Of a stretch of 49,196 nucleotides of DNA, positions 637 to 36,843 are shown one piece after another. Position numbers and translations under genes: made by a program. Within the stretch, counting starts at the first letter, position 1, and every line of letters starts with the position of its first letter. Source of the stretch: a virus; IMG/VR virus record IMGVR_UViG_3300021185_002976, positions 1 to 49,196 of that record. The stretch is one strand, 5' to 3'. The notes under the pieces were generated by a model. The model did not search any database, had not been told where the DNA came from, and was given only the letters and a program-made list of their open reading frames with translations.

Positions 637-1023
637 ATGGACGCAAGAGAACAATTAGAACAGATGAGTAGTAGTGATATTCAATCATATAATATGAATG
701 AGTATGACGATGTAAAACTTACAGAAAAGGCCGCTGAACACTTACTGAGCATAGACCATCCCGTAATAGAGATGAGTGCCAAAGGTGGTGGATGTAGTGG
801 TATGACTTATGAGATGAAACCACTACCAAGTAGTTTTATAAAAAGTAAAACTGATAAGGTATTTGAAAGTTATGGAGTAAAGGTTATAGTACCATTTTCA
901 AGTTATGTTTATATGACAGGATTAGTAATTGATTATAAGGATGATTTATTAAATGGTGGTTTTAAGTTTGACAATCCACAGGCAGAACGCTCGTGTGGAT
1001 GTGGAACATCTTTTTCCGTATAA
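637..1023 (+). CDS. A-type Fe-S cluster carrier (IscA/HesB-like)
   Basis: A 128-aa protein with the HesB/IscA fold. Its N-terminal extension of about 25 residues is followed by KLTEKAAEHLL. The three cluster-ligand cysteines are C53 in GGGCSGM and C120/C122 in SCGCGTSFSV, matching the family C-x(n)-C-G-C pattern. A-type carriers bind and deliver [2Fe-2S] or [4Fe-4S] clusters to apo-proteins in the cytoplasm. HesB/IscA-like genes are known from T4-like marine phages. No Shine-Dalgarno sequence precedes the ATG; an ATATTTAT box abuts it. A partner Fe-S protein is not visible in the window. Confidence 0.85.
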   Translation: MDAREQLEQMSSSDIQSYNMNEYDDVKLTEKAAEHLLSIDHPVIEMSAKGGGCSGMTYEMKPLPSSFIKSKTDKVFESYGVKVIVPFSSYVYMTGLVIDYKDDLLNGGFKFDNPQAERSCGCGTSFSV

Positions 1024-1032
1024 GGAGTAACA

Positions 1033-1608
1033 ATGTCACAAAAAGGTAAACAAGGAATCAATCCTTGGCTGGGAAAGACGATACCCAAAGATAGGATAGT
1101 TCGTGCTATAGAAGAAAGTGAAAGCATGGCCAAGGCGGCTCAATCACTCCACACATCCTACAACACATTTAAAAAGTATGCAAAAAAATATGATGTATGG
1201 AAACCATTACCAAGTAATGCTGGAATAAGTAGGGCCCGTAAGGTTACTTGGAGTGGAAATAAACCTTTGGATGTAGAGATAAGTTTTCAGAAAGAATTGA
1301 TTAAGGAATTTATACTTCCACAAAGATGTAGTTGTTGTGGTGAATCAAGACAAAGAAAAACAGATTTACTCACACCATTAATTGTACATTTTATTAATGG
1401 AGATACACACGATAGAAATCCATCCAATTTAAGATTTTTTTGTTATAATTGTTATTTCTTAGAGAATCCTAACAAACACAGAACCATCAATAAAGATATC
1501 GGTAGAACATTTGAAGAACAACAAGAGATATCAGAAGATGGTATAACTGGTGATGATTTGGCTAAAGAGTTAGGTGAATCGTTAGCAGATTTATTTGGTA
1601 AAAACTGA
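1033..1608 (+). CDS. HTH plus zinc-binding HNH-like protein
   Basis: A 191-aa protein with AAGGAG ahead of the ATG. Residues about 18-50 (IVRAIEESESMAKAAQSLHTSYNTFKKYAKKY) look like a helix-turn-helix of the type that reads 'MAKAAQSLHTSYNTFKK'. Residues about 98-140 hold two zinc knuckles (CSCCGE and CYNCYF) flanking LIVHFINGDTHDRNPSNLRFF, an HNH-like core in which VHFINGD replaces the usual DHI. The arrangement suits a phage homing-type nuclease or a DNA-binding regulator. The acidic C-terminus (DDLAKELGESLADLF) is of unknown role. It overlaps the next ATG. Confidence 0.6.
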   Translation: MSQKGKQGINPWLGKTIPKDRIVRAIEESESMAKAAQSLHTSYNTFKKYAKKYDVWKPLPSNAGISRARKVTWSGNKPLDVEISFQKELIKEFILPQRCSCCGESRQRKTDLLTPLIVHFINGDTHDRNPSNLRFFCYNCYFLENPNKHRTINKDIGRTFEEQQEISEDGITGDDLAKELGESLADLFGKN

Positions 1609-1952
1609 TGAGTAAGTTATGGGCGGCACTTATAATATCTTTCTTCGGACATATCCTTGCGTGGTTTCATATGCAAGGTCAATTTAAATATGAATGGGCA
1701 AAAAGTATATGGTGGGTTATATTAGGTGGAGTACCAATTAGTATTGCATTCTATTATGGTACAAGGTGGTATTATGAATACTTTCAAAATTATTGGTATG
1801 TTAGACCGATTGGATTTGGTATGGCAACTTTAGTATTCACTATAATGACTTGGTTAATGTTACATGAAGTTCCCGATACGAGAACCATAATAACTATGTT
1901 TCTTTCCGTTATTATTATTGTAATTCAATTATCACACCTTTTTGTTAAATAA
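1608..1952 (+). CDS. Integral membrane protein with four predicted helices
   Basis: A 114-aa, very hydrophobic protein with four probable membrane spans (about residues 5-20, 34-50, 68-86 and 92-111), rich in Trp and Tyr near the interfaces. It starts at the ATG overlapping the upstream TGA. No catalytic motif is present and no family was recognised with certainty. Phage roles such as holin-like or inner-membrane remodelling activity are possible, but nothing in the sequence supports one over another. Confidence 0.6.
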   Translation: MSKLWAALIISFFGHILAWFHMQGQFKYEWAKSIWWVILGGVPISIAFYYGTRWYYEYFQNYWYVRPIGFGMATLVFTIMTWLMLHEVPDTRTIITMFLSVIIIVIQLSHLFVK

Positions 1953-1960
1953 TAAGATAT

Positions 1961-1968
1961 ATATTTAA
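1961..1968 (+). promoter_or_regulatory. ATATTTAA box, candidate late promoter
   Basis: The box ATATTTAA lies within ATATATATTTAATATG, directly before the ATG at 1970 and without a Shine-Dalgarno sequence. It resembles the ATATTTAT family in this window, with A for T at the last position. A leaderless transcript is implied if it is a promoter. Confidence 0.3.
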
Positions 1969-1969
1969 T

Positions 1970-2221
1970 ATGAAGAATTCAAAAGAATATGGTATAATGA
2001 AAAGAACTGCCGATGGGGAATTGGTAGTCAGAGATCATTTTCCTGAAGATGTTAAGGTAGCAGTTACTGCATTCTTAGCGGCAGGTAAGATGATGGTAGA
2101 TGAAGGACTTGATTATTTACCAAGTGATTATTTGGTTAATTTATTAGAAACTCTATCTAAGTATCCAGAGTACAACAATTTAACTATGGACTTGTATAGG
2201 GCATACGACAAGGAGATTTAA
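1970..2221 (+). CDS. Small acidic protein, unknown function
   Basis: An 83-aa soluble, acidic, mostly helical protein (HFPEDVKVAVTAFLAAGKMMVDEGLDYLPSDYLVNLLETLSKYPEYNN). No family was recognised. The ATG has no ribosome binding site but follows an ATATTTAA box. An internal ATG (about codon 7, MKRTADGE) is an alternative start. It ends immediately before the next ATG. Confidence 0.5.
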   Translation: MKNSKEYGIMKRTADGELVVRDHFPEDVKVAVTAFLAAGKMMVDEGLDYLPSDYLVNLLETLSKYPEYNNLTMDLYRAYDKEI

Positions 2222-2518
2222 ATGGCCGTAAAAGAAGTTAAAACATTAGTATTGAAACGAGTTCCACCTGGTGACCAATGGGCAGATATCGAAGATTCTA
2301 CAGCAGGAGTATTCCCAAGTTTAACAGATGGATTAGAACATTCGTTTCAGAAATCAGGTGGTAAGAACACAGAGTTCCATTTGAGTGCGTTTAAAGGTGA
2401 GATATATGCTGTTCATAAAGAAGAAGAACCAGATGCACCACCACCACCAAAACCAAGATATTCCATGTATGGCGAAGAAGCCGATGTACAACCAAGTATG
2501 TGGAAGAAAGGAGAATAA
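2222..2518 (+). CDS. Small protein with proline-rich segment, unknown function
   Basis: A 98-aa protein abutting the genes on both sides (ATG directly after the upstream TAA), so part of one transcription unit. Residues 1-65 look like a compact α/β domain. A proline run (EEPDAPPPPKPRYSMYGEE) follows at about 69-88. No signal peptide or catalytic motif is visible and no family was recognised. Confidence 0.5.
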   Translation: MAVKEVKTLVLKRVPPGDQWADIEDSTAGVFPSLTDGLEHSFQKSGGKNTEFHLSAFKGEIYAVHKEEEPDAPPPPKPRYSMYGEEADVQPSMWKKGE

Positions 2519-3070
2519 ATGAATAAAAATATAGGATTTATATTATCAGTTATATTTGGTGTTGTATGTTTCAGTGCTGGAACATATTACAGTTGGATTA
2601 AAATAGAAGATAGGTATGTAGAATATACTAAGAAGTGGGATAAGATAAACTCGGATGTTGAACAATTTGTAGAAGTTTCAAACCCAAAGACGATTCAATT
2701 TTATGTCGCAGAACTAAGAAAGATTCTTGATGACATGACAAGGTTGAGTAAGATAATTGAGAAGGGACAAGAGATTGATGAAGCTATCGATAAAATACTT
2801 GAAGGTATAGTACAACTTGAAAGTCAATGGGATATTACACTTAGTAATGATATTAAGATGAAAGAAACTATTGAGGTTGTAAATGACCACATTAAGGATG
2901 TTGATATTCGTGCTAAATCTCAGATACAAAATGTTATTGATAATGAAATCAAAGATATCGATACAAGAATAGATAAACAATTCGAACAGATTAGTAAAGA
3001 CTTAAAGGAAATAAAAGATATTATTAATCAAATTGAAAATTCTAAAGTTGGTAAAAAAATATTTAAATGA
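2519..3070 (+). CDS. Membrane-anchored coiled-coil protein
   Basis: A 183-aa protein with AAGGAG before the ATG. Residues about 5-24 form a single transmembrane anchor (IGFILSVIFGVVCFSAGTYYSW). The rest is a long, highly charged helix (KIIEKGQEIDEAIDKILEGIVQ... to the C-terminus), probably coiled coil. This architecture suits a spacer or scaffold at the inner membrane. Its stop overlaps the next ATG by 4 bases. No homolog family was recognised. Confidence 0.55.
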   Translation: MNKNIGFILSVIFGVVCFSAGTYYSWIKIEDRYVEYTKKWDKINSDVEQFVEVSNPKTIQFYVAELRKILDDMTRLSKIIEKGQEIDEAIDKILEGIVQLESQWDITLSNDIKMKETIEVVNDHIKDVDIRAKSQIQNVIDNEIKDIDTRIDKQFEQISKDLKEIKDIINQIENSKVGKKIFK

Positions 3071-3303
3071 AAGATGATGTAATATATAATAAACACGATA
3101 ATCAGGTTATGGTAAAAACTGATGGTGATTTAATTTATATCATATGTCATAGAGAAGAACAACAAGATAATGTGGTCAAGAGAATGACTACTGATAATTG
3201 TCTTTTAGAATCTTACGAAGAATGGGATGAGGATGATGATAAGAAATGGATACTAACATTCAGAGTATTAGACAACTATGAAGTTACACCAAATTTAAAT
3301 TAG
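3067..3303 (+). CDS. Small acidic protein, unknown function
   Basis: A 78-aa protein beginning 4 bases inside the preceding stop region, so translationally coupled to it. It is predicted to be β-rich and strongly acidic (ESYEEWDEDDDKKWILTFRVLDN). No signal peptide and no recognised family. It is followed 9 bases later by the selenoprotein start. Confidence 0.5.
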   Translation: MKDDVIYNKHDNQVMVKTDGDLIYIICHREEQQDNVVKRMTTDNCLLESYEEWDEDDDKKWILTFRVLDNYEVTPNLN

Positions 3304-3312
3304 GAGATTAGA

Positions 3313-3576
3313 ATGAAAATAACAATTGAATATTGTATGCAATGAAACTACGAACCAAGAGCTCTCAGTTTGAGAGATGATTTAATGGATGAGTTTCTTA
3401 CTGATTTTGATTCGTTTGAAATAAACTTAGTCGAATCAAGTGATGGTGTATTTGAAGTAATGGTTAATGATCATCTACAAGTATTTTCAAAGAAACAATT
3501 AAATAGATTTCCTAATAGTTCATATGAGATTATAAAGACTATTAAAGATGCTATAGATGAGAGGAGATTAGGTTAG
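3313..3576 (+). CDS. SelW-like (Rdx family) selenoprotein with in-frame TGA
   Basis: An 87-residue reading frame is recovered if TGA at 3343-3345 is read as selenocysteine. It starts at ATG 3313 behind a clear AGGAG (3302-3306). The N-terminus MKITIEYCMQU gives a CxxU motif at residues 8-11 on the first β-strand, exactly where SelW/SelT/SelH (Rdx) proteins carry CxxU or CxxC. Downstream NYEPRALSLRDDLMDEF, then GVFEVMVNDHLQVFSKKQLNRFP and a final helix YEIIKTIKDAI, follow the SelW pattern (YxPR...L...F; G.FEV...g.L..SK). Family members are thioredoxin-like thiol oxidoreductases. A hairpin with a G-first apical loop lies 16-31 nt after the TGA (see the SECIS entry). Without recoding only a 10-residue peptide is made, despite the good ribosome binding site. 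Alternative: a start at TTG 3370 or ATG 3385, which would lose the redox motif and has no ribosome binding site. Confidence 0.8.
3355..3388 (+). promoter_or_regulatory. Candidate bacterial SECIS element
   Basis: Inside the coding region just downstream of the TGA, bases 3362-3367 (CTCTCA) pair perfectly with 3371-3376 (TGAGAG), closing a 3-nt loop GTT at 3368-3370. Weak outer pairing (CCA 3355-3357 with TGG 3386-3388) may extend it. Bacterial SECIS elements need a stem-loop 16-37 nt past the UGA with a G in the first two loop positions; here the loop begins 22 nt after the UGA and its first base is G. Binding by host SelB is inferred. Confidence 0.6.
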
Positions 3577-3654
3577 TCGGTTTCCCCTATATACTAACTG
3601 TCTCCCAAAGGGTAATTATACCATATATAAGTAGATAAAAGCACAAAAAAAGAC

Positions 3655-3683
3655 TTGACTTTTATTATTTTTTTTCGTAAGAT
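3655..3683 (+). promoter_or_regulatory. σ70-type promoter, TTGACT-17-TAAGAT
   Basis: The -35 is TTGACT at 3655-3660, then a 17-bp T-rich spacer and -10 TAAGAT at 3678-3683, within the repeated context CGTAAGATCAAG. It heads the 3708 gene with a leader of about 18 nt. The 78-bp stretch between the selenoprotein stop and the promoter holds TTAGT/ACTAA and CCC/GGG complementary bits but no clear terminator. Confidence 0.8.
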
Positions 3684-3707
3684 CAAGTGAATAAAAAATA
3701 GGTTATT

Positions 3708-9815: not shown

Positions 9816-9915
9816 GTGAATTATAGCAATAAAGTTATGTATTCCAAAGGTTATTTAAATACTTATCAATGGAGATTTTCTTCATTAAACATTTCACATA
9901 CAATAAAACCAGCGG

Positions 9916-9949
9916 ACAGGCAGCTGACACACCTGTGAAAAAATGTGTC
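9916..9949 (+). promoter_or_regulatory. Predicted H-type pseudoknot in the TonB receptor leader
   Basis: Two stems interleave: ACAGG (9916-9920) with CCTGT (9932-9936), and GACACA (9926-9931) with TGTGTC (9944-9949). The junction loop is CAGCT and the other loop is GAAAAAA. It ends 11 nt before the GAGGAG ribosome binding site. This compact topology with an A-rich loop resembles small riboswitches such as preQ1-I, but the long second stem does not fit that consensus. No terminator or promoter was identified in 9816-9973. Confidence 0.45.
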
Positions 9950-9973
9950 TTAACCAAAAAGAGGAGAACGTTA

Positions 9974-12787
9974 ATGAATATACGTAATCTAACAATATCA
10001 TTATTGATGACAACAGGATTGTTTGCACAAACTATCGTTGGGGTTGTTAATGGTGGTAGTGAACCATTGGTTGGAGCAAATGTTGCTGTTGTAGGAACTG
10101 ATAAAGGTGGTGTAACAGATGAATCTGGTAAATACACTATCGATGTCGGAGCTGAAGGCACATACACATTAACTGCTTCATTCATTGGATATTCACCTTT
10201 AACATTGGATGTTAAGGTGGGTGATATAGTTGGAACACTCAACTTCGATTTAGAAGAAGATGTTTTAGCTATGACAGCACTTGAGGTCTTGGCTTCAAGA
10301 GCTGATGAAAAGACACCTGTCGCATACACTAATGTGGTAAAAGAAGAATTGGAATTTCGTCTTGGTAGTCAAGATGTTCCAATGGCTTTGAATACTACAC
10401 CAAGTGTTTATGCAACTCAACAAGGTGGTGGTGCGGGTGATGCTCGTATCAATGTTCGTGGGTTCAACCAACGAAATGTAGCCGTAATGATAAATGGTGT
10501 TCCCCAAAATGATATGGAGAACGGATGGGTTTATTGGTCTAATTGGGATGGAGTTGCAGATGCAGCACAATCAATTCAGATGCAAAGAGGTCTATCAGCT
10601 GTTAATCTAGCCACACCATCGATTGGTGGAACTATGAACATTATTACTGATCCTGCTCAACACGAGAAGGGCGGTAAGTTCAAACAAGAAACAGGCGCAG
10701 GTGGTTTTCTAAAAACTACTCTTAATTACAATAGTGGTTTGATTGGAGAAAAACTCGCGTTAAGTGGTACAATAGTACGAAAAACAGGTGATGGACTCAT
10801 CGACAAAACATGGACAGACGCTTGGGCATATTATTTTGGTGCGAGTTATCAAGCTAATAAAGATAACCGATTTGAATTATACGCTATCGGAGCTCCACAA
10901 CGCCATGGTCAAAATCTATACAAACAGAATATCGGTGCTTATGACGCTGAATTTGCTGCGAGTATAGATGGATATGATGAAACAGCACTTGGAGAAGATG
11001 GTTCGTTCAAAGATGTTGGTCGATTCTTTAATCAGAATTGGTCACCTATTAGTTCAGACTATAAAGGAAAGCAATATTGGTATATGTATGGTGATAAAAC
11101 ATCGGACAGATACAATCCTAACTTCCTAAATGAAAGAGAAAACTTCTTTCATAAACCATTGGTTAATCTTAACCATTTCCTAAATATAAATGAAAAACTT
11201 CGTCTTTCATCTGTAGCTTATTGGAGTGGTGGATCTGGTGGTGGTACTGGTACTTATGGTAGGATTCCAACTCTCGACGCCGATGGTGTTTTAGGGGGAG
11301 AAGATTATAAGTTTTATTATGGTCGTTCTCCTTGGACAAGAGATTGGAATACATTGGTTGCATACAACTCAGGTGACGCAGACACAGTTTATGTTGATAA
11401 GAGAGTTCTACCAAGAACTCATGGTGATGGTAATAATCAATCAGTAGGTATTCTTCGTAACTCTATTAATCGTCAAAATACTCTCGGTTTAATCTCCAAA
11501 TTAAACTACGAAGTTAATGATGATTTAGAGGTTCAAGTTGGTATTGATTGGAGAACTGCTAAAATCGAACACGCTCGTGAAGTTCGTGATTTGATGGGTG
11601 GTGATTACTATATGGATTACGCAGATGATAACTACGCAGATGGTAAAAGAGTTGGTTTAGGTGATATCATTGCATACCACAATCATACTACGGTTGATTG
11701 GTTAGGTGGATTTGTTCAAGGTAATTATACTTTGGATAATTTAAACCTTTATGGTATGGGTGGTGTATCTAACATCAAGTATACTTATCAAGATCATTTT
11801 ACGGTTGAGAACGAGTTAATTGAAGCACCATCAATCACAACAATTCAAGCAAAAGGTGGAGCAGTTTACGATATAGATGATAATGTTAGTGTATTTGCTA
11901 ACGCTGGATATGTCGAAAAACCACCTATTATGGATAATGTGATTTACTTTGATGGTACGGTTGCACCAGATCCTGCTAATGAGAAATTCATTAGTTCAGA
12001 AGCTGGTGTTAATTTCAAATCTGATAAATTTGCTGTTAAGGCAAATGTATACAATACAGATTGGAAAGACCGAAACCTTACTAAATCCGTAACCACAGGA
12101 CAAGGTGATTCAGGTGATACTGATGTTATCTTCCTTAGTGGTATCCATCAAAAACATCAAGGACTTGAGATAGAAGCTTCTTCACAAGTTCATTCAATGT
12201 TTAGGATAGACGCGGCACTTAGTTTTGGTAAATGGCAGTTCAATGGAGATGCTAGTGGTAATTATCAAGAAAACGAATATGATGAACAAGGTAATGTAAG
12301 TGGTTTGAAAACAACCAAATACAATTACGCACTTGATGGATTATTCGTAGGTGATATGCCTCAAACTTCATATGTCTTGGGTGGAACTCTAACTCCTGTT
12401 AAAGGACTTAGTATTCAAGCACTCTACAATATCTATGATGATAATTATAGTGATTGGAGTCCTGATTCTCGTGAGTATGATGTTGACGCAACAGACGATG
12501 ATGGTAATTCAGTAGATGACGCAGATAGAGAACAAGTATGGATGGCACCTGGATATCAAAAAGTTGATATTCACGCTTCATATAAACTACCAACCGATTG
12601 GACTGGTGGATATGATGTGTCGTTGTCAGCACATTTGTTTAACGCTTTAGATGCTGTATTTGTACAAGATGCAGTAGATCACAGCCAATACAATAGTTAT
12701 GGTGACAAAGTTCACGCAGCACACAACGCTGAAGTATTTCTTGGAACACCAAGATACTTTAACTTAGGATTGTCTGTTAATTTCTAA
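9974..12787 (+). CDS. TonB-dependent outer-membrane receptor
   Basis: A 937-aa protein starting at ATG 9974 behind GAGGAG; the frame is open further upstream, but only this start gives a signal peptide (ISLLMTTGLFAQ, cleavage after about residue 19). Domains: a carboxypeptidase-regulatory-like β-sandwich (about 20-105), a TonB-box-like TPVAYTNV at 114-121, a plug (about 122-245, with RINVRGFNQRNVAVMINGVPQND and GGTMNIITDP), and a 22-strand-type barrel ending in SVNF with a terminal Phe. These receptors import siderophores, vitamins or glycans using TonB energy. It is intact and full length, has its own leader and terminator, and looks like an acquired host gene. Possible roles are nutrient uptake during infection or altering phage adsorption; the substrate cannot be read from the sequence. 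Confidence 0.93.
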   Translation: MNIRNLTISLLMTTGLFAQTIVGVVNGGSEPLVGANVAVVGTDKGGVTDESGKYTIDVGAEGTYTLTASFIGYSPLTLDVKVGDIVGTLNFDLEEDVLAMTALEVLASRADEKTPVAYTNVVKEELEFRLGSQDVPMALNTTPSVYATQQGGGAGDARINVRGFNQRNVAVMINGVPQNDMENGWVYWSNWDGVADAAQSIQMQRGLSAVNLATPSIGGTMNIITDPAQHEKGGKFKQETGAGGFLKTTLNYNSGLIGEKLALSGTIVRKTGDGLIDKTWTDAWAYYFGASYQANKDNRFELYAIGAPQRHGQNLYKQNIGAYDAEFAASIDGYDETALGEDGSFKDVGRFFNQNWSPISSDYKGKQYWYMYGDKTSDRYNPNFLNERENFFHKPLVNLNHFLNINEKLRLSSVAYWSGGSGGGTGTYGRIPTLDADGVLGGEDYKFYYGRSPWTRDWNTLVAYNSGDADTVYVDKRVLPRTHGDGNNQSVGILRNSINRQNTLGLISKLNYEVNDDLEVQVGIDWRTAKIEHAREVRDLMGGDYYMDYADDNYADGKRVGLGDIIAYHNHTTVDWLGGFVQGNYTLDNLNLYGMGGVSNIKYTYQDHFTVENELIEAPSITTIQAKGGAVYDIDDNVSVFANAGYVEKPPIMDNVIYFDGTVAPDPANEKFISSEAGVNFKSDKFAVKANVYNTDWKDRNLTKSVTTGQGDSGDTDVIFLSGIHQKHQGLEIEASSQVHSMFRIDAALSFGKWQFNGDASGNYQENEYDEQGNVSGLKTTKYNYALDGLFVGDMPQTSYVLGGTLTPVKGLSIQALYNIYDDNYSDWSPDSREYDVDATDDDGNSVDDADREQVWMAPGYQKVDIHASYKLPTDWTGGYDVSLSAHLFNALDAVFVQDAVDHSQYNSYGDKVHAAHNAEVFLGTPRYFNLGLSVNF

Positions 12788-15862: not shown

Positions 15863-15871
15863 AAATAATAC

Positions 15872-15900
15872 TTGACTTTATCACTATTTATTCGTAAGAT
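15872..15900 (+). promoter_or_regulatory. σ70-type promoter, TTGACT-17-TAAGAT (leaderless)
   Basis: TTGACT at 15872-15877 and TAAGAT at 15895-15900 are spaced 17 bp, in the TTCGTAAGATCAA context. The ATG of the next gene starts 6 bases after the -10, so the mRNA would be leaderless. Confidence 0.8.
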
Positions 15901-15905
15901 CAATT

Positions 15906-16169
15906 ATGACAAATAAAGAATTACAAGATTTAATAATAAAAACATTTGATGGGATTATCATTGATGAGTATGACCGAGAGATTCATAAGATTGATGGTAA
16001 ATCATATGATATCACATTTGACAGAAGTAGAGTTGAATGGAGTTGTAGTTGTCCAGCATTTAAGTTTCGTAGACGACATAAGATTTCTAAGTGTAAACAT
16101 ATAATTGAAATACAGAATAGAAAATTTAAGACATTGGTTGAAGGCCGAGCTGGTGTCCGAGTGGTCTAA
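15906..16169 (+). CDS. SWIM zinc-finger protein
   Basis: An 87-aa protein whose central region SCSCPAFKFRRRHKISKCKHI carries the CxC-x(n)-CxH zinc ligands of the SWIM domain (C49/C51, then C-x-H), preceded by the β-strands SYDITFDRSRVEWSC. SWIM domains bind DNA or proteins and occur in recombination and chromatin-associated factors. The gene has no Shine-Dalgarno sequence and begins at the predicted transcription start. Its last 23 bases overlap the tRNA-Cys gene, so the C-terminal residues (EGRAGVRVV) are partly encoded by tRNA sequence. Confidence 0.75.
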   Translation: MTNKELQDLIIKTFDGIIIDEYDREIHKIDGKSYDITFDRSRVEWSCSCPAFKFRRRHKISKCKHIIEIQNRKFKTLVEGRAGVRVV

Positions 16170-16220
16170 GGAGATGGATTGCAAACCCATTATTCGTGAG
16201 TTCGAATCTCACCCAGCTCT
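16147..16220 (+). tRNA. tRNA-Cys (GCA)
   Basis: Full cloverleaf: acceptor GAGCTGG (16147-16153) with CCAGCTC (16213-16219), D-stem TCC/GGA, anticodon stem ATGGA/CCCAT (one A·C mismatch at the loop end) enclosing TTGCAAA with GCA at 16181-16183, and T-arm GTGAG-TTCGAAT-CTCAC. The discriminator is U (16220), the key identity base for cysteinyl-tRNA synthetase. CCA is not encoded. It overlaps the end of the SWIM gene and probably shares its promoter. Confidence 0.92.
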
Positions 16221-16242
16221 CAAAAATAATTGAAAAAAAGAC

Positions 16243-16271
16243 TTGACTTTCTCGTTTTTTCTTCGTAAGAT
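16243..16271 (+). promoter_or_regulatory. σ70-type promoter, TTGACT-17-TAAGAT
   Basis: TTGACT at 16243-16248 and TAAGAT at 16266-16271 are spaced 17 bp, followed by CAAG. It lies just after the tRNA and serves the 16303 operon, with a leader of about 24 nt carrying AAAGGGA. Confidence 0.82.
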
Positions 16272-16302
16272 CAAGTATTAATTAAATAAAGGGAAATAAC
16301 AA

Positions 16303-18820: not shown

Positions 18821-18925
18821 ATGTATAATATATTTTTAATACTACTTATGTTACAATGGAACTCGTGTTCTCCGATACCTGAACCTACTTACATTGATGA
18901 TGTGAATATGGAGAATTATGCGTAA
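18821..18925 (+). CDS. Putative micro-lipoprotein
   Basis: A 34-aa peptide, MYNIFLILLMLQWNSCSPIP then EPTYIDDVNMENYA. The hydrophobic start followed by WNSC resembles a lipobox with Cys at residue 16, giving an 18-19-residue mature lipopeptide. AAGGAA lies upstream and it overlaps the deformylase start by 8 bases. It may act as a small envelope lipoprotein; the lipobox is imperfect. Confidence 0.42.
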   Translation: MYNIFLILLMLQWNSCSPIPEPTYIDDVNMENYA

Positions 18926-19568
18926 AGTAATTGATTGTTTTAAAGAAGATAATCCAGTAATAAATAAAAAACTAAGAGAGGTTTCAGTTGAAGAAGGAAA
19001 CATTATTGCCACAGAATTATTTCAGATACTTAACGAAAGAAAAGACGGCATTGGGTTGGCAGCGAATCAAGTGGGAATTGATGCACAAGTGGCCGTTATC
19101 AATGTTATTGAACCTTTGGTTCTCATTAACCCAAAGATTGAAGAACAATGGGATGAAATTCCCTACTACGAAGGATGTTTGAGTTTTCCAAAACAAGGTA
19201 TTCATACTAAAAGATATAGGAATATTGTTATCAAAACCGAACAGGCAGAAAGTGGTTGGTACTTTAGTGGGGCAGAAACTACACAAGAGGCTAAAGGTAG
19301 TTGGGAACAAGACAATAAAGAACAGGATCAAGAACAAAGATTATTAGAAGCTATATGTGTTCAACACGAGATAGACCATTTAAATGGAATAACTATACAC
19401 GATAGAGAAGATAAACCAAAACCAATTATATCTAAAAAGGGATACGGAAGAAACGAAAGAGTTATGATTACCAATGGTAAAGAAACACAAGAATTAAAAT
19501 ACAAAAAAGCAAAACCACTTATAGATAGTGGAAAATGGGAAATCTACATAGGAGGCCCGATAACTTAA
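18918..19568 (+). CDS. def: Peptide deformylase
   Basis: A 216-aa protein with all three deformylase motifs: GIGLAANQVG (about 44-53), EGCLSFP (about 85-91, Cys metal ligand) and QHEIDHLNG (about 149-157, both His ligands and the catalytic Glu). It removes the formyl group from nascent peptides. Two departures from the bacterial norm are visible: an acidic, Gln-rich insertion of about 30 residues between motifs 2 and 3 (SGWYFSGAETTQEAKGSW...), and a C-terminal extension of about 55 residues (GYGRNERVMITNGKETQEL...). GGAG lies before the ATG. Phage deformylases are well known in marine myophages. Confidence 0.92.
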   Translation: MRKVIDCFKEDNPVINKKLREVSVEEGNIIATELFQILNERKDGIGLAANQVGIDAQVAVINVIEPLVLINPKIEEQWDEIPYYEGCLSFPKQGIHTKRYRNIVIKTEQAESGWYFSGAETTQEAKGSWEQDNKEQDQEQRLLEAICVQHEIDHLNGITIHDREDKPKPIISKKGYGRNERVMITNGKETQELKYKKAKPLIDSGKWEIYIGGPIT

Positions 19569-20266: not shown

Positions 20267-20405
20267 AAAGATGGAGTTATTAAAAAAGGCTGAGAAAGTA
20301 AATTATGTATTTGAGAAGATGGATAAGGAAACACAAGACGCTGTAAAAAGTCTTATTAACCATATGATGGTAGAAAAAACTAAAAAGGATAATCACATAG
20401 TTTGA
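20253..20405 (+). CDS. Small helical protein, unknown function
   Basis: A 50-aa protein; ATG 20253 has GGAG 8 bases upstream. Sequence features KKNKKMELLKKAEKVNYVFEKMDKETQDAVKSLINHMMVEK suggest two helices. Its TGA overlaps the TTG start of the next gene. Confidence 0.5.
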   Translation: MKKNKKMELLKKAEKVNYVFEKMDKETQDAVKSLINHMMVEKTKKDNHIV

Positions 20406-21586
20406 AAAAATATTTAACATATGATGATGTAAACATAGTTCCAAAGTACTCGGAGTTAAAATCTCGTGATGATGTAGATCTTACCACACGATTTACCAAG
20501 AATAGAAAACTACACATCCCAATAGTAGCCTCACCGATGGATACCGTAACTGAAGAAGATATGGCCATAGAGATGATGGAAAGGGGTGCCGTAGGTGTTA
20601 TACATAGATTTATGTCTATTAAAAAACAATCTCGTATGATGCAATCATTACATTATAAATGGGATAGTTTTTTTAATATAGGTGATGGTAAAGAAAGAAG
20701 TGCCGATAATGATTATGATGAGTGGTATAAGAAACTAAGTAATAAAAGTAAAATATCCAAATCAGATTGGGAGGATTTTAAAGATTACGGAATGTTCACA
20801 GATGATATGGCAGAAACCGATAGGATGTGGAGAAACCTACCCTTATGTGCAGCAGTTGGTGTTACAGGAGATTATTTAGAAAGAGCGAAAGAATTGGTAT
20901 TAAACGGATGTAATGTACTACTTATAGATGTAGCACACGGCCACCATAAAAATGTAGGAGACGCTATTGAAGAAATCAAGAGTAAAATATCAAACATCGA
21001 AGTCATTGCGGGAAACATTGCGACAAGAGATGGAGCAGAGTTTCTCTGTGAAAAAGGTGCTGACGGCATCAGAGTGGGAATCGGTAACGGCTCATTATGT
21101 GAAACAAGAATCAGGACTGGCGTTGGATTACCTCAGGTTAGTGTTCTTCTTGATGTGTATTCCGTTTGTGACGATTGGGATGTTCCTATTATTGCTGATG
21201 GTGGTATTCGGAATGTGGGTGATGTGGCTAAAGGACTTGGTTGCGGAGCTGACACCATCATGGTCGGTTCGTTACTTTCGGGCACCAAAGAGAGTCCAGG
21301 TCAAATAGAAAAACAAGGTGAGTGGCCTAACGAAAAATTATTTAAAAAGTACAGAGGTTCTGCATCAAGAGATTCAAAAGGAAACGATAAGAATGTTGAG
21401 GGAAATCATAAAGTGATTCCTTACAAGGGTAAAGTAAATAGAATACTTAGTGATATAGAAGATGGAATAAAAAGTTCGTGTTCCTATGTAGGGGCAAATA
21501 ATCTTGCAGAATATAGATCTTTAGTAGAATTTGTAGAAGTAACAAATGCAGGTCAAGTAGAGGCTCGACCACATTTATTAAGTTAA
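20402..21586 (+). CDS. IMP dehydrogenase/GMP reductase family enzyme (no CBS domains)
   Basis: A 394-aa TIM-barrel protein starting at TTG 20402, overlapping the upstream TGA. The N-terminus LTYDDVNIVPKYSE matches the family start. Catalytic loop GNGSLCETRIRTGVGLPQ has the nucleophile Cys at about 233; the phosphate-binding ADGGIRNVGD and IMVGSLLSGTKESPG follow, then the flap region VEGNHKVIPYKGKV and GIKSSCSYVGANNL. CBS domains are absent; a helical stretch of about 50 residues (KERSADNDYDEWYKKLSNKSK...) sits where they would be inserted. The flap lacks the IMPDH Arg-Tyr pair, so GMP reductase activity is as likely. Either enzyme would steer guanine nucleotide pools for phage DNA synthesis. 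Confidence 0.85.
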   Translation: MKKYLTYDDVNIVPKYSELKSRDDVDLTTRFTKNRKLHIPIVASPMDTVTEEDMAIEMMERGAVGVIHRFMSIKKQSRMMQSLHYKWDSFFNIGDGKERSADNDYDEWYKKLSNKSKISKSDWEDFKDYGMFTDDMAETDRMWRNLPLCAAVGVTGDYLERAKELVLNGCNVLLIDVAHGHHKNVGDAIEEIKSKISNIEVIAGNIATRDGAEFLCEKGADGIRVGIGNGSLCETRIRTGVGLPQVSVLLDVYSVCDDWDVPIIADGGIRNVGDVAKGLGCGADTIMVGSLLSGTKESPGQIEKQGEWPNEKLFKKYRGSASRDSKGNDKNVEGNHKVIPYKGKVNRILSDIEDGIKSSCSYVGANNLAEYRSLVEFVEVTNAGQVEARPHLLS

Positions 21587-24872: not shown

Positions 24873-24873
24873 C

Positions 24874-24902
24874 TTGACTTTTACTGCAAATTGTCGTAAG
24901 AT
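24874..24902 (+). promoter_or_regulatory. σ70-type promoter, TTGACT-17-TAAGAT
   Basis: TTGACT at 24874-24879 and TAAGAT at 24897-24902 are spaced 17 bp, within GTCGTAAGATCAAG. It follows the methyltransferase stop directly and drives the 24929 operon. Confidence 0.82.
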
Positions 24903-24928
24903 CAAGAGTAATTCGAAAGGAAAATAGT

Positions 24929-34833: not shown

Positions 34834-36843
34834 ATGGCAAATAGAGTCCAAAAGGATGTAAGATATTTAAACAAAGACTTTGGTGCCTTTAGAGAAAGTT
34901 TAATAGAGTTTGCAAAAACTTATTATCCAAATACATATAATGACTTTAATGAGGCATCACCTGGTATGATGTTCATAGAAATGGCATCTTATGTAGGAGA
35001 TGTCCTTTCTTACTATGTTGATAGTCAGTTTAAAGAGATGTTATTAGCATATGCCGAAGATAGAAAAACTATCTATGAAATGGCACAAGTATATGGATAT
35101 AAACCTAAAGTAACACGACCAGCATTTACAACAGCTGATGTTTTTCAGACTGTACCAGCACGAGGAACTGGTACTAATGTTAAACCAGATATGAATTACG
35201 CATTAACTATCAATGAAGGTACACAAGTTAGTGCAAATAATGGTACTACCTTTAGAACATTAGAAGATGTAAATTTTAAATTTTCAAGTTCTTTTGACCC
35301 GTTACAAATAGATGTATTTGAAGTCAACCCAACTAATAAAGTTCCGTCATTATATTTGTTAAAAAAATCAGTTAAGTTAGGAAGTGGAACTATACAATCT
35401 GAAACTTTTGATTTTAGTTCTGCAGAATCATATCCAAGAATAAAATTAGCAAAACAAAATGTAATCGAAATACTTTCTGTTACAGATAGTGATAGTAATA
35501 AATGGTATGAAGTTCCATACTTAGCACAAGATACATTATTTACAGATGTAGAAAATACAGCAGCAACTGATCCAGATTTAGTTCAATACAACGACACCGT
35601 TCCGTATCTTTTAAAATTAAAAAAGACACCAAGAAGATTTGTTACTTACATTGTACAAGATGGTTCAACTGAATTAAGATTTGGTTCAGGTATATCCGAT
35701 AGTCCAGATGAGGAAATAGTTCCAAACCCAAGTACGGTTGGTTCGAGTTTACCTGGTAGTCCAAATAAACTTGATACATTTTTTGATCCTGCAAACTTTC
35801 TTAAAACTGAAGCTTATGGTCAGGCACCAGCAAATACTACACTTACTATAAAATATGCATATGGTGGTGGTATAGAAGATAATGTAGCCGTAAATAGTAT
35901 ATCAAATATTTCCGAAGTTTCATTTACAGTAGAAGAAGATAATCTTGTAGCAAGTACATTACTAACTACCAAGAATTCAGTAGCAATTGCAAATCCATAT
36001 CCAGCTACTGGTGGTAAATCCGCAGAATCTACCGAGGAGATTAAACAAAACGCATTAGCTTATTTTCAAGCACAAGGTAGAGTTGTGACTAAAGAAGATT
36101 ATATAACACGAACATATGCTATGGGTAACAAATATGGTGCAGTTGCAAAGGCATACATTGTACAAGACGAACAATTAAATATACCAAATATGCAATTAGA
36201 AACTTCTCCAGGATCTGGATTGTTTGTAGACGAGAGAAATATAGACCAACTTAGGTCTAAAGATTTAGTTTCTTCTAAAACAAAATTAGATAATCCTATG
36301 GCATTAAATTTATATACACTCGGATATAATGAGAATAAACATTTGACTCAATTAAACACCGCAGTAAAACAGAATTTAAAAACATATTTATCTCAGTATA
36401 GATTGGTGACAGATGCAATCAATATTAAAAATGCTTGGATTATAAATATTGGAGTTAAATTTAGTTTTATAGCTAGACGAGGATTTAATAAAAATGAAAT
36501 TACTTTAAGGGCAATAGAATCAATTAAAGAATTTTTCCGAATAGATAAGTGGCAAATAAATCAACCTATTGTGGTTGCAGAATTAGCACAAATTATTTCA
36601 CAAGTGGAAGGAATAGGAGCCATTGTTCCACCAGCAGAAAACAATCCTAATAAATTACCACTATTAATTACTAATAAATTTCAAGAATCGGATGGTTATT
36701 CGGGTAACATATATGATATAAATTATGCCACAAAAGATGGTATTATTTATCCGTCATTAGATCCAAGTATTTTTGAATTAAAATATCCAAATACAGATAT
36801 CGAAGGTAGGTCGGTTGGTGATTCTGTTGGTGTGGCGTATTAA
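34834..36843 (+). CDS. Baseplate wedge protein, gp6/J-like
   Basis: A 669-aa protein with GGAG before the ATG. The N-terminus VQKDVRYLNKDFGAFRESLIEFAKTYYPNTYNDFNEASPGMMFIEMASYVGDVLSYYVDSQ is typical of gp6-type baseplate J proteins in T4-like phages. The mid part includes ESTEEIKQNALAYFQAQGRVVTKEDYITRTYAM, the J-type TKEDY motif. gp6 forms the ring that joins wedges and triggers the conformational switch. The length agrees with the family. Confidence 0.9.
   Translation: MANRVQKDVRYLNKDFGAFRESLIEFAKTYYPNTYNDFNEASPGMMFIEMASYVGDVLSYYVDSQFKEMLLAYAEDRKTIYEMAQVYGYKPKVTRPAFTTADVFQTVPARGTGTNVKPDMNYALTINEGTQVSANNGTTFRTLEDVNFKFSSSFDPLQIDVFEVNPTNKVPSLYLLKKSVKLGSGTIQSETFDFSSAESYPRIKLAKQNVIEILSVTDSDSNKWYEVPYLAQDTLFTDVENTAATDPDLVQYNDTVPYLLKLKKTPRRFVTYIVQDGSTELRFGSGISDSPDEEIVPNPSTVGSSLPGSPNKLDTFFDPANFLKTEAYGQAPANTTLTIKYAYGGGIEDNVAVNSISNISEVSFTVEEDNLVASTLLTTKNSVAIANPYPATGGKSAESTEEIKQNALAYFQAQGRVVTKEDYITRTYAMGNKYGAVAKAYIVQDEQLNIPNMQLETSPGSGLFVDERNIDQLRSKDLVSSKTKLDNPMALNLYTLGYNENKHLTQLNTAVKQNLKTYLSQYRLVTDAINIKNAWIINIGVKFSFIARRGFNKNEITLRAIESIKEFFRIDKWQINQPIVVAELAQIISQVEGIGAIVPPAENNPNKLPLLITNKFQESDGYSGNIYDINYATKDGIIYPSLDPSIFELKYPNTDIEGRSVGDSVGVAY

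Follow-up and report, generated by a model that had tools for sequence, protein, structure and literature searches.

Identification of the selW-like gene and its predicted protein

Does the in-frame TGA of a short viral gene end translation, or is it read as selenocysteine (Sec)? The question is raised by positions 3313-3576 of a 49,196-nt stretch of marine viral DNA (IMG/VR record IMGVR_UViG_3300021185_002976), which as a whole is called the window. We consider it very probable that this gene specifies an Rdx/SelW-family selenoprotein of the phage and that the host reads its UGA as Sec; the insertion of Sec is inferred, without protein or selenium data. The features of the locus are as follows.

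3302..3306, + strand: AGGAG, likely ribosome-binding site (sequence)
3313..3576, + strand: selW-like gene, very probably for a selenoprotein, 87 residues with U11 (Rdx profile, predicted fold, relatives)
3343..3345, + strand: TGA, proposed selenocysteine codon (TGA at the same place in viral and cellular relatives)
3362..3376, + strand: SECIS hairpin, stem 3362-3367/3371-3376, loop GUU 3368-3370 (folding and comparison)

The frame runs from the ATG at 3313 through the TGA at 3343-3345 to the TAG at 3574-3576, and reading TGA as U gives 87 residues. The N-terminus, MKITIEYCMQUNYEPRALSLRDD, contains the CxxU motif C8-M-Q-U11 (residues 8-11). An Rdx-family protein of this length and motif, led by an AGGAG and an ATG, had been proposed in the initial annotation, with a search against Rdx/SelW profiles as a check, and the proposal held. 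The Pfam Rdx profile (PF10262) matched the reconstructed protein with 61.5 bits (cut-off 22.6, E 8.8e-17) over residues 2-78, i.e., on both flanks of the TGA. The AGGAG at 3302-3306 was located 6 nt before the ATG and overlaps the stop of the upstream gene. A PHROG search of the protein gave nothing at 0.001.

The AlphaFold2 model of the window protein (pLDDT 91, pTM 0.81) placed CxxU between a strand (2-8) and a helix (14-28). Comparison of the model with the PDB gave 22 matches at E<=0.001, and the top 21, all chains of 2fa8, 2obk, 2oka, 3dex, 2ojl, and 2p0g, showed TM values of 0.75-0.83 to the query. The same six structures were also recovered by the sequence profile. The window protein is predicted on this model to have the thioredoxin-like SelW fold and matches solved SelW-type proteins, in agreement with the profile search.

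Downstream of the UGA, the NG86 dN/dS was 0.08 between L192 and L208, 0.32 between the window and L192, and 0.42 between the window and L208. These values are rough, with dS near saturation. As judged from such substitution ratios, the frame beyond the UGA is a real protein under purifying selection.

TGA codon in viral and cellular relatives

Searching viral contigs with the window protein gave two further records, which match the window exactly over 661 nt, TGA included. A degenerate DNA pattern (EYCxxU...PRA) then matched 25 viral stretches, 18 of them SelW-like with an in-frame TGA and 7 due to chance. The 18 stretches reduced to 10 distinct sequences over 48 nt from the UGA start, nine of which showed 47-60% identity to the window protein. 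A relaxed pattern matched 87 stretches; among the 80 listed, 72 were SelW-like and 8 were chance matches (SYCHCUNY frames). This pattern brought the closest relatives of the window, L192 and L208. A second large viral group carried the signature IKYCxxUNYxPQA...GQFELF. Altogether, at least 74 viral loci with TGA were counted (the 72 relaxed-pattern loci, the window, and L005; L007, L027, and L028 were not added), with 48 distinct 48-nt stretches; of the 72, L009 and L011 are the identical records named above. The gene had been presented as a rare case; it does not stand alone, though the count comes from TGA-requiring patterns.

Both viral DNA patterns contain the TGA and are therefore blind to the frequency of viral Cys forms, and TGA retention is partly built in. 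A scan based on profiles used two patterns, one of which avoids residue 11, and found 14 loci, all on contigs already known with TGA. Cellular relatives showed TGA at residue 11 in 80/80 (the best 80 of 276), in a search where one of the two patterns does not touch the Sec residue. A comparison of homologues in related phages for Cys in place of Sec had also been suggested; divergent viral relatives carried TGA at the same place, with the reservation that the search patterns required it. Among the isolated phages of INPHARED, tblastn gave no match for the window protein or for one second-clade protein. Two viral loci, L005 (around 1350-1418) and L012 (minus strand), had no ATG near the motif; they have in common an N-terminal extension (ASTTxNIxVT) opening with TTG or GTG.

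The TGA could also mark a pseudogene or a sequencing error, since standard translation breaks the frame and the base calls are without read support. We find this explanation barely credible, because divergent phages keep the TGA, purifying selection continues after it, and three identical records contain it. Genome-wide TGA recoding was rejected as well, because TGA is the stop codon of 7 of 71 hand-chosen window genes, among them two long ones.

Hairpin downstream of the UGA

The hairpin CTCTCA-GTT-TGAGAG at 3362-3376 has a 6-bp stem starting 17 nt past the UGA, a GUU loop, and a UGA-to-loop distance of 22 nt. A 6-bp hairpin with a G-first loop had been predicted at this very distance, and it is present. 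According to PMC13188914, bacterial SECIS elements have a loop of 3-9 nt, a stem of 4-16 bp, a G within the first two loop positions, a UGA-to-loop distance of 16-37 nt, and an MFE <= -7.5 kcal/mol. The window hairpin meets the loop, stem, G-position, and distance constraints. Its energy was -6.5 kcal/mol over 40-48 nt and -10.4 to -11.6 kcal/mol over 55-70 nt from the UGA, so the limit was reached only with the longer stretches. RNA folding, also suggested as a check, agreed with most of these constraints, for energy only over 55-70 nt. In context, five pairs had probabilities of 0.91-0.92 and the sixth 0.60. Taken alone, the window hairpin was unexceptional (z -0.73; 48 of 200 shuffles fold equally well or better). 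As the single-sequence fold is unremarkable, the case for the hairpin rests on comparison.

In one fixed register, 10 viral genes formed 58/60 stem pairs, against 36.2 +/- 2.9 after synonymous recoding (largest of 2000: 47), and 7/10 passed singly at p<0.05. One stem pair is broken in L010, whose best fold is a different one, and L004 has 5 pairs. The cellular Sec genes formed 405/456 pairs (274.8 +/- 8.3 when recoded), with 42/76 passing singly. The Cys-type control of 15 genes formed 32/90 pairs (34.2 +/- 2.7 when recoded), and none passed singly. The test rows were 76 cellular (including L029), 10 viral, and 15 Cys-type, without L105, L087 (N), and duplicates. The cellular figure is the unpicked value; the 95.7% pairing in an alignment of 10 viral rows and 33 cellular rows chosen by hand, with other-loop and other-register groups excluded, is inflated.

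Pairing was also high in the 48 distinct viral 48-nt sequences: 273/288 pairs, against 153.7 +/- 7.6 after synonymous recoding (largest of 1000: 174). All six pairs were intact in 38/48 sequences. The loops were GTT (20), GTC (20), GGC (5), and GGT (3), with G first in 48/48. The relaxed search pattern itself prescribes the C in the first stem pair. Covariation in the 48 sequences was 0.678; shuffling gave 0.141, and sliding gave no more than 0.247. Further pair types (384/500) and pairs changed on both sides (494/500) were not above shuffles. For the first 10 viral sequences covariation was 0.396 versus 0.221, and further pair types (453/500) were again not above shuffles. L208 showed two compensated stem-pair differences from L192 and the window. 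Judged by comparison of these sequences, the viral hairpin is under selection, far beyond chance.

An ordinary tRNA, e.g., a phage tRNA-Cys, might instead read the UGA and give a Cys protein. The window does encode a tRNA-Cys (GCA) at 16147-16221, the sole tRNA found in it by ARAGORN, and Cys-type Rdx proteins exist. Such a reading leaves unexplained why 48/48 viral sequences have a covarying hairpin at a fixed distance whose loop begins with G. Moreover, the strict Cys pattern EYCxxCNYxPRA matched 0 stretches in viral contigs, where its Sec version matched 15. Decoding by an ordinary tRNA is in our view improbable, and Sec remains the preferred reading of the UGA.

Phage nature of the records

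The following features bear on the nature of the DNA around the gene.

637..3303, + strand: genes upstream of selW (blastp against L208 frames, homologues of 48-78% identity)
34834..36843, + strand: baseplate wedge protein, phage hallmark (43.5% identity over 99% to a Microcystis phage Mel-JY01 protein)

T4-like gp23 was found on 3/19 and 4/20 virus records, giving seven gp23-positive records with the selW gene (E below 1e-75); of the second 20 records, L220 and L221 carry only chance pattern matches. Two of the seven gp23 records, G272 and G274, have the same SelW. In L208, homologues of the genes at 637..3303 also lead up to selW, with one gene placed differently; the run there has one gene inserted, and ~400 nt before selW.

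Viral contigs with the gene might be miscalled bacterial DNA: many of them are short, IMG/VR calls are automatic, and the window, which looks like a fragment, has no gp23 capsid or Terminase_6C match. The gp23 matches on seven records, the window's own baseplate wedge protein, and viral SelW clades without sampled cellular rows inside all contradict this, and we think it very improbable. The records with the selW gene are phages.

Other features of the window were also recorded. An IMP dehydrogenase/GMP reductase-domain gene is located at 20402-21586 and a peptide deformylase gene at 18918-19568. Four exact copies of CTTGACTTT-N12-TCGTAAGATCAA occur at 3654-3686, 15871-15903, 16242-16274, and 24873-24905. 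This sigma-70-like motif with a fixed extension was found 0 times in 100 shuffles and is possibly a phage promoter.

Tree and origin of the viral SelW genes

The tree was built from 88 rows, of which 51 were viral, 32 cellular (from 80), and 5 Cys-type (from 15), leaving out 8 chance loci, the truncated L200 and L214, and near-duplicates. The window, L192, and L208 grouped with 99/99 support, inside a 14-row viral clade (94/70) beside proteobacterial rows. The 37 other viral rows formed a separate set (99/94) with long branches, which carries a long-branch warning. No sampled cellular rows fell inside the viral clades. An earlier 104-row tree placed 11 viral rows on one fork (95/77). L210 and L213 form a third small viral SelW group (IRYCVxUNYLPHATRL) with long branches.

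Since the viral rows group apart, the phage genes were not copied recently from the cellular genes sampled. There was no support for recent descent from the host's SelW, the viral rows standing apart from the Neomarinimicrobiota rows. The 88-row tree rests on short proteins with few columns, carries the long-branch warning, and is only modestly supported (94/70 for the clade with the window). With these limits, we lean towards Sec-SelW being an old phage gene, present in two or three phage-specific clades, in T4-like marine phages and others, where Sec and a covarying SECIS have persisted across deep divergence.

Host and Sec machinery

One gene of the window gave evidence on the host.

9869..12787, + strand: TonB-dependent receptor, full-length, 972 aa, host evidence (identity to Neomarinimicrobiota receptors)

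The receptor showed up to 70-71% identity, near full length, to proteins in the phylum of G019 (the L057 genome, Candidatus Neomarinimicrobiota), and its best match in the plasmid collection was 31.8% identical. No chromosomes of other phyla were included in this comparison. Of 27 virus records tested, G000-G002 carry the window's own receptor, and relatives of it occur on the SelW-bearing records G003 (74%; gp23-positive), G004 (70%), and G005 (70%). The G003 receptor gene has one internal TAA. IMPDH as a host marker was weak, with at best 49% identity over part of the protein. The likely host is Neomarinimicrobiota, an inference from sequence identity that rests mainly on one gene family. 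That a phage carries a full-length gene for a TonB-dependent receptor is a side observation; by inference, its product may alter adsorption or block superinfection.

Rdx was present in 61/120 Neomarinimicrobiota genomes, with one TGA in 62/63 places, the remaining place being a partial match. A gammaproteobacterial sample had Rdx in 12/114 genomes, of which 10 lacked a stop and 2 had one TGA. Cellular genomes with Sec-SelW had tRNA-Sec over the cut-off in 11/12 and SelB in 6/6 tested. A host lineage without SelA/SelB would have spoken against the initial annotation; the likely host phylum has Sec-type SelW, tRNA-Sec, and SelB.

Phage-encoded Sec machinery was considered and rejected, with tRNA-Sec over the cut-off on 0/19 virus records and SelB on 0/34. 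The tRNA-Sec search covered the first batch of virus records only, and many records are fragments. Weaker tRNA-Sec matches on 4/19 records (six places) were read as ordinary tRNAs by ARAGORN. With neither found in these records, we infer that the host must supply both.

Proposed mechanism

The phage would infect a bacterium, probably of the Neomarinimicrobiota. At the hairpin just past the UGA, SelB of this host would deliver the host's own Sec-tRNA(Sec) to the ribosome; there are no SelB-binding data. Decoding of the UGA as Sec would then give the 87-residue thioredoxin-like protein with its CxxU redox site. From its family, the product is expected to be a small thiol/selenol redox protein. 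For infection we infer, as the most likely role, that of a fast thiol/selenol oxidoreductase keeping targets reduced.

Significance and comparison with known systems

If this reading is true, selenoproteins extend to bacterial viruses, some phages may depend on selenium, and infection is tied to selenium and to the Sec-decoding ability of the host. It would also show that such genes escape standard gene calling and the phage families (the protein matched no PHROG). The viral set is also natural comparative material for the evolution of bacterial SECIS elements within coding sequence. Our literature search, with most subscription papers and all preprints outside its scope, found no report of a phage-encoded selenoprotein gene and no description of phage-specific SelW clades; the SelW family itself is known. 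The main texts of PMC13188914 (a 2026 review) and PMC12013277 contain no word starting with phage, virus, or viral.

Phages with tRNA-Sec genes have been reported, with no selenoprotein gene named in the portions available (PMC6145125, PMC10747093). They have in common with the window a phage link to Sec decoding; in contrast to them, the window's group has the selenoprotein gene and no tRNA-Sec over the cut-off (19 records). The poxvirus glutathione peroxidase (PMC8310308) is likewise a virus-borne selenoprotein made with host Sec machinery, which for the phage is inferred; it differs in belonging to a eukaryotic virus and another protein family and in using a eukaryotic SECIS. In the Sargasso Sea and GOS surveys, bacterial SelW-like proteins (Rdx, PF10262) were the selenoprotein family of highest abundance (PMC1088965, PMC2398784). 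The window protein resembles bacterial SelW in its Rdx domain, its CxxU motif, and a hairpin at the same register whose loop is mostly GNN, but it is phage-encoded, and the viral rows form clades of their own.
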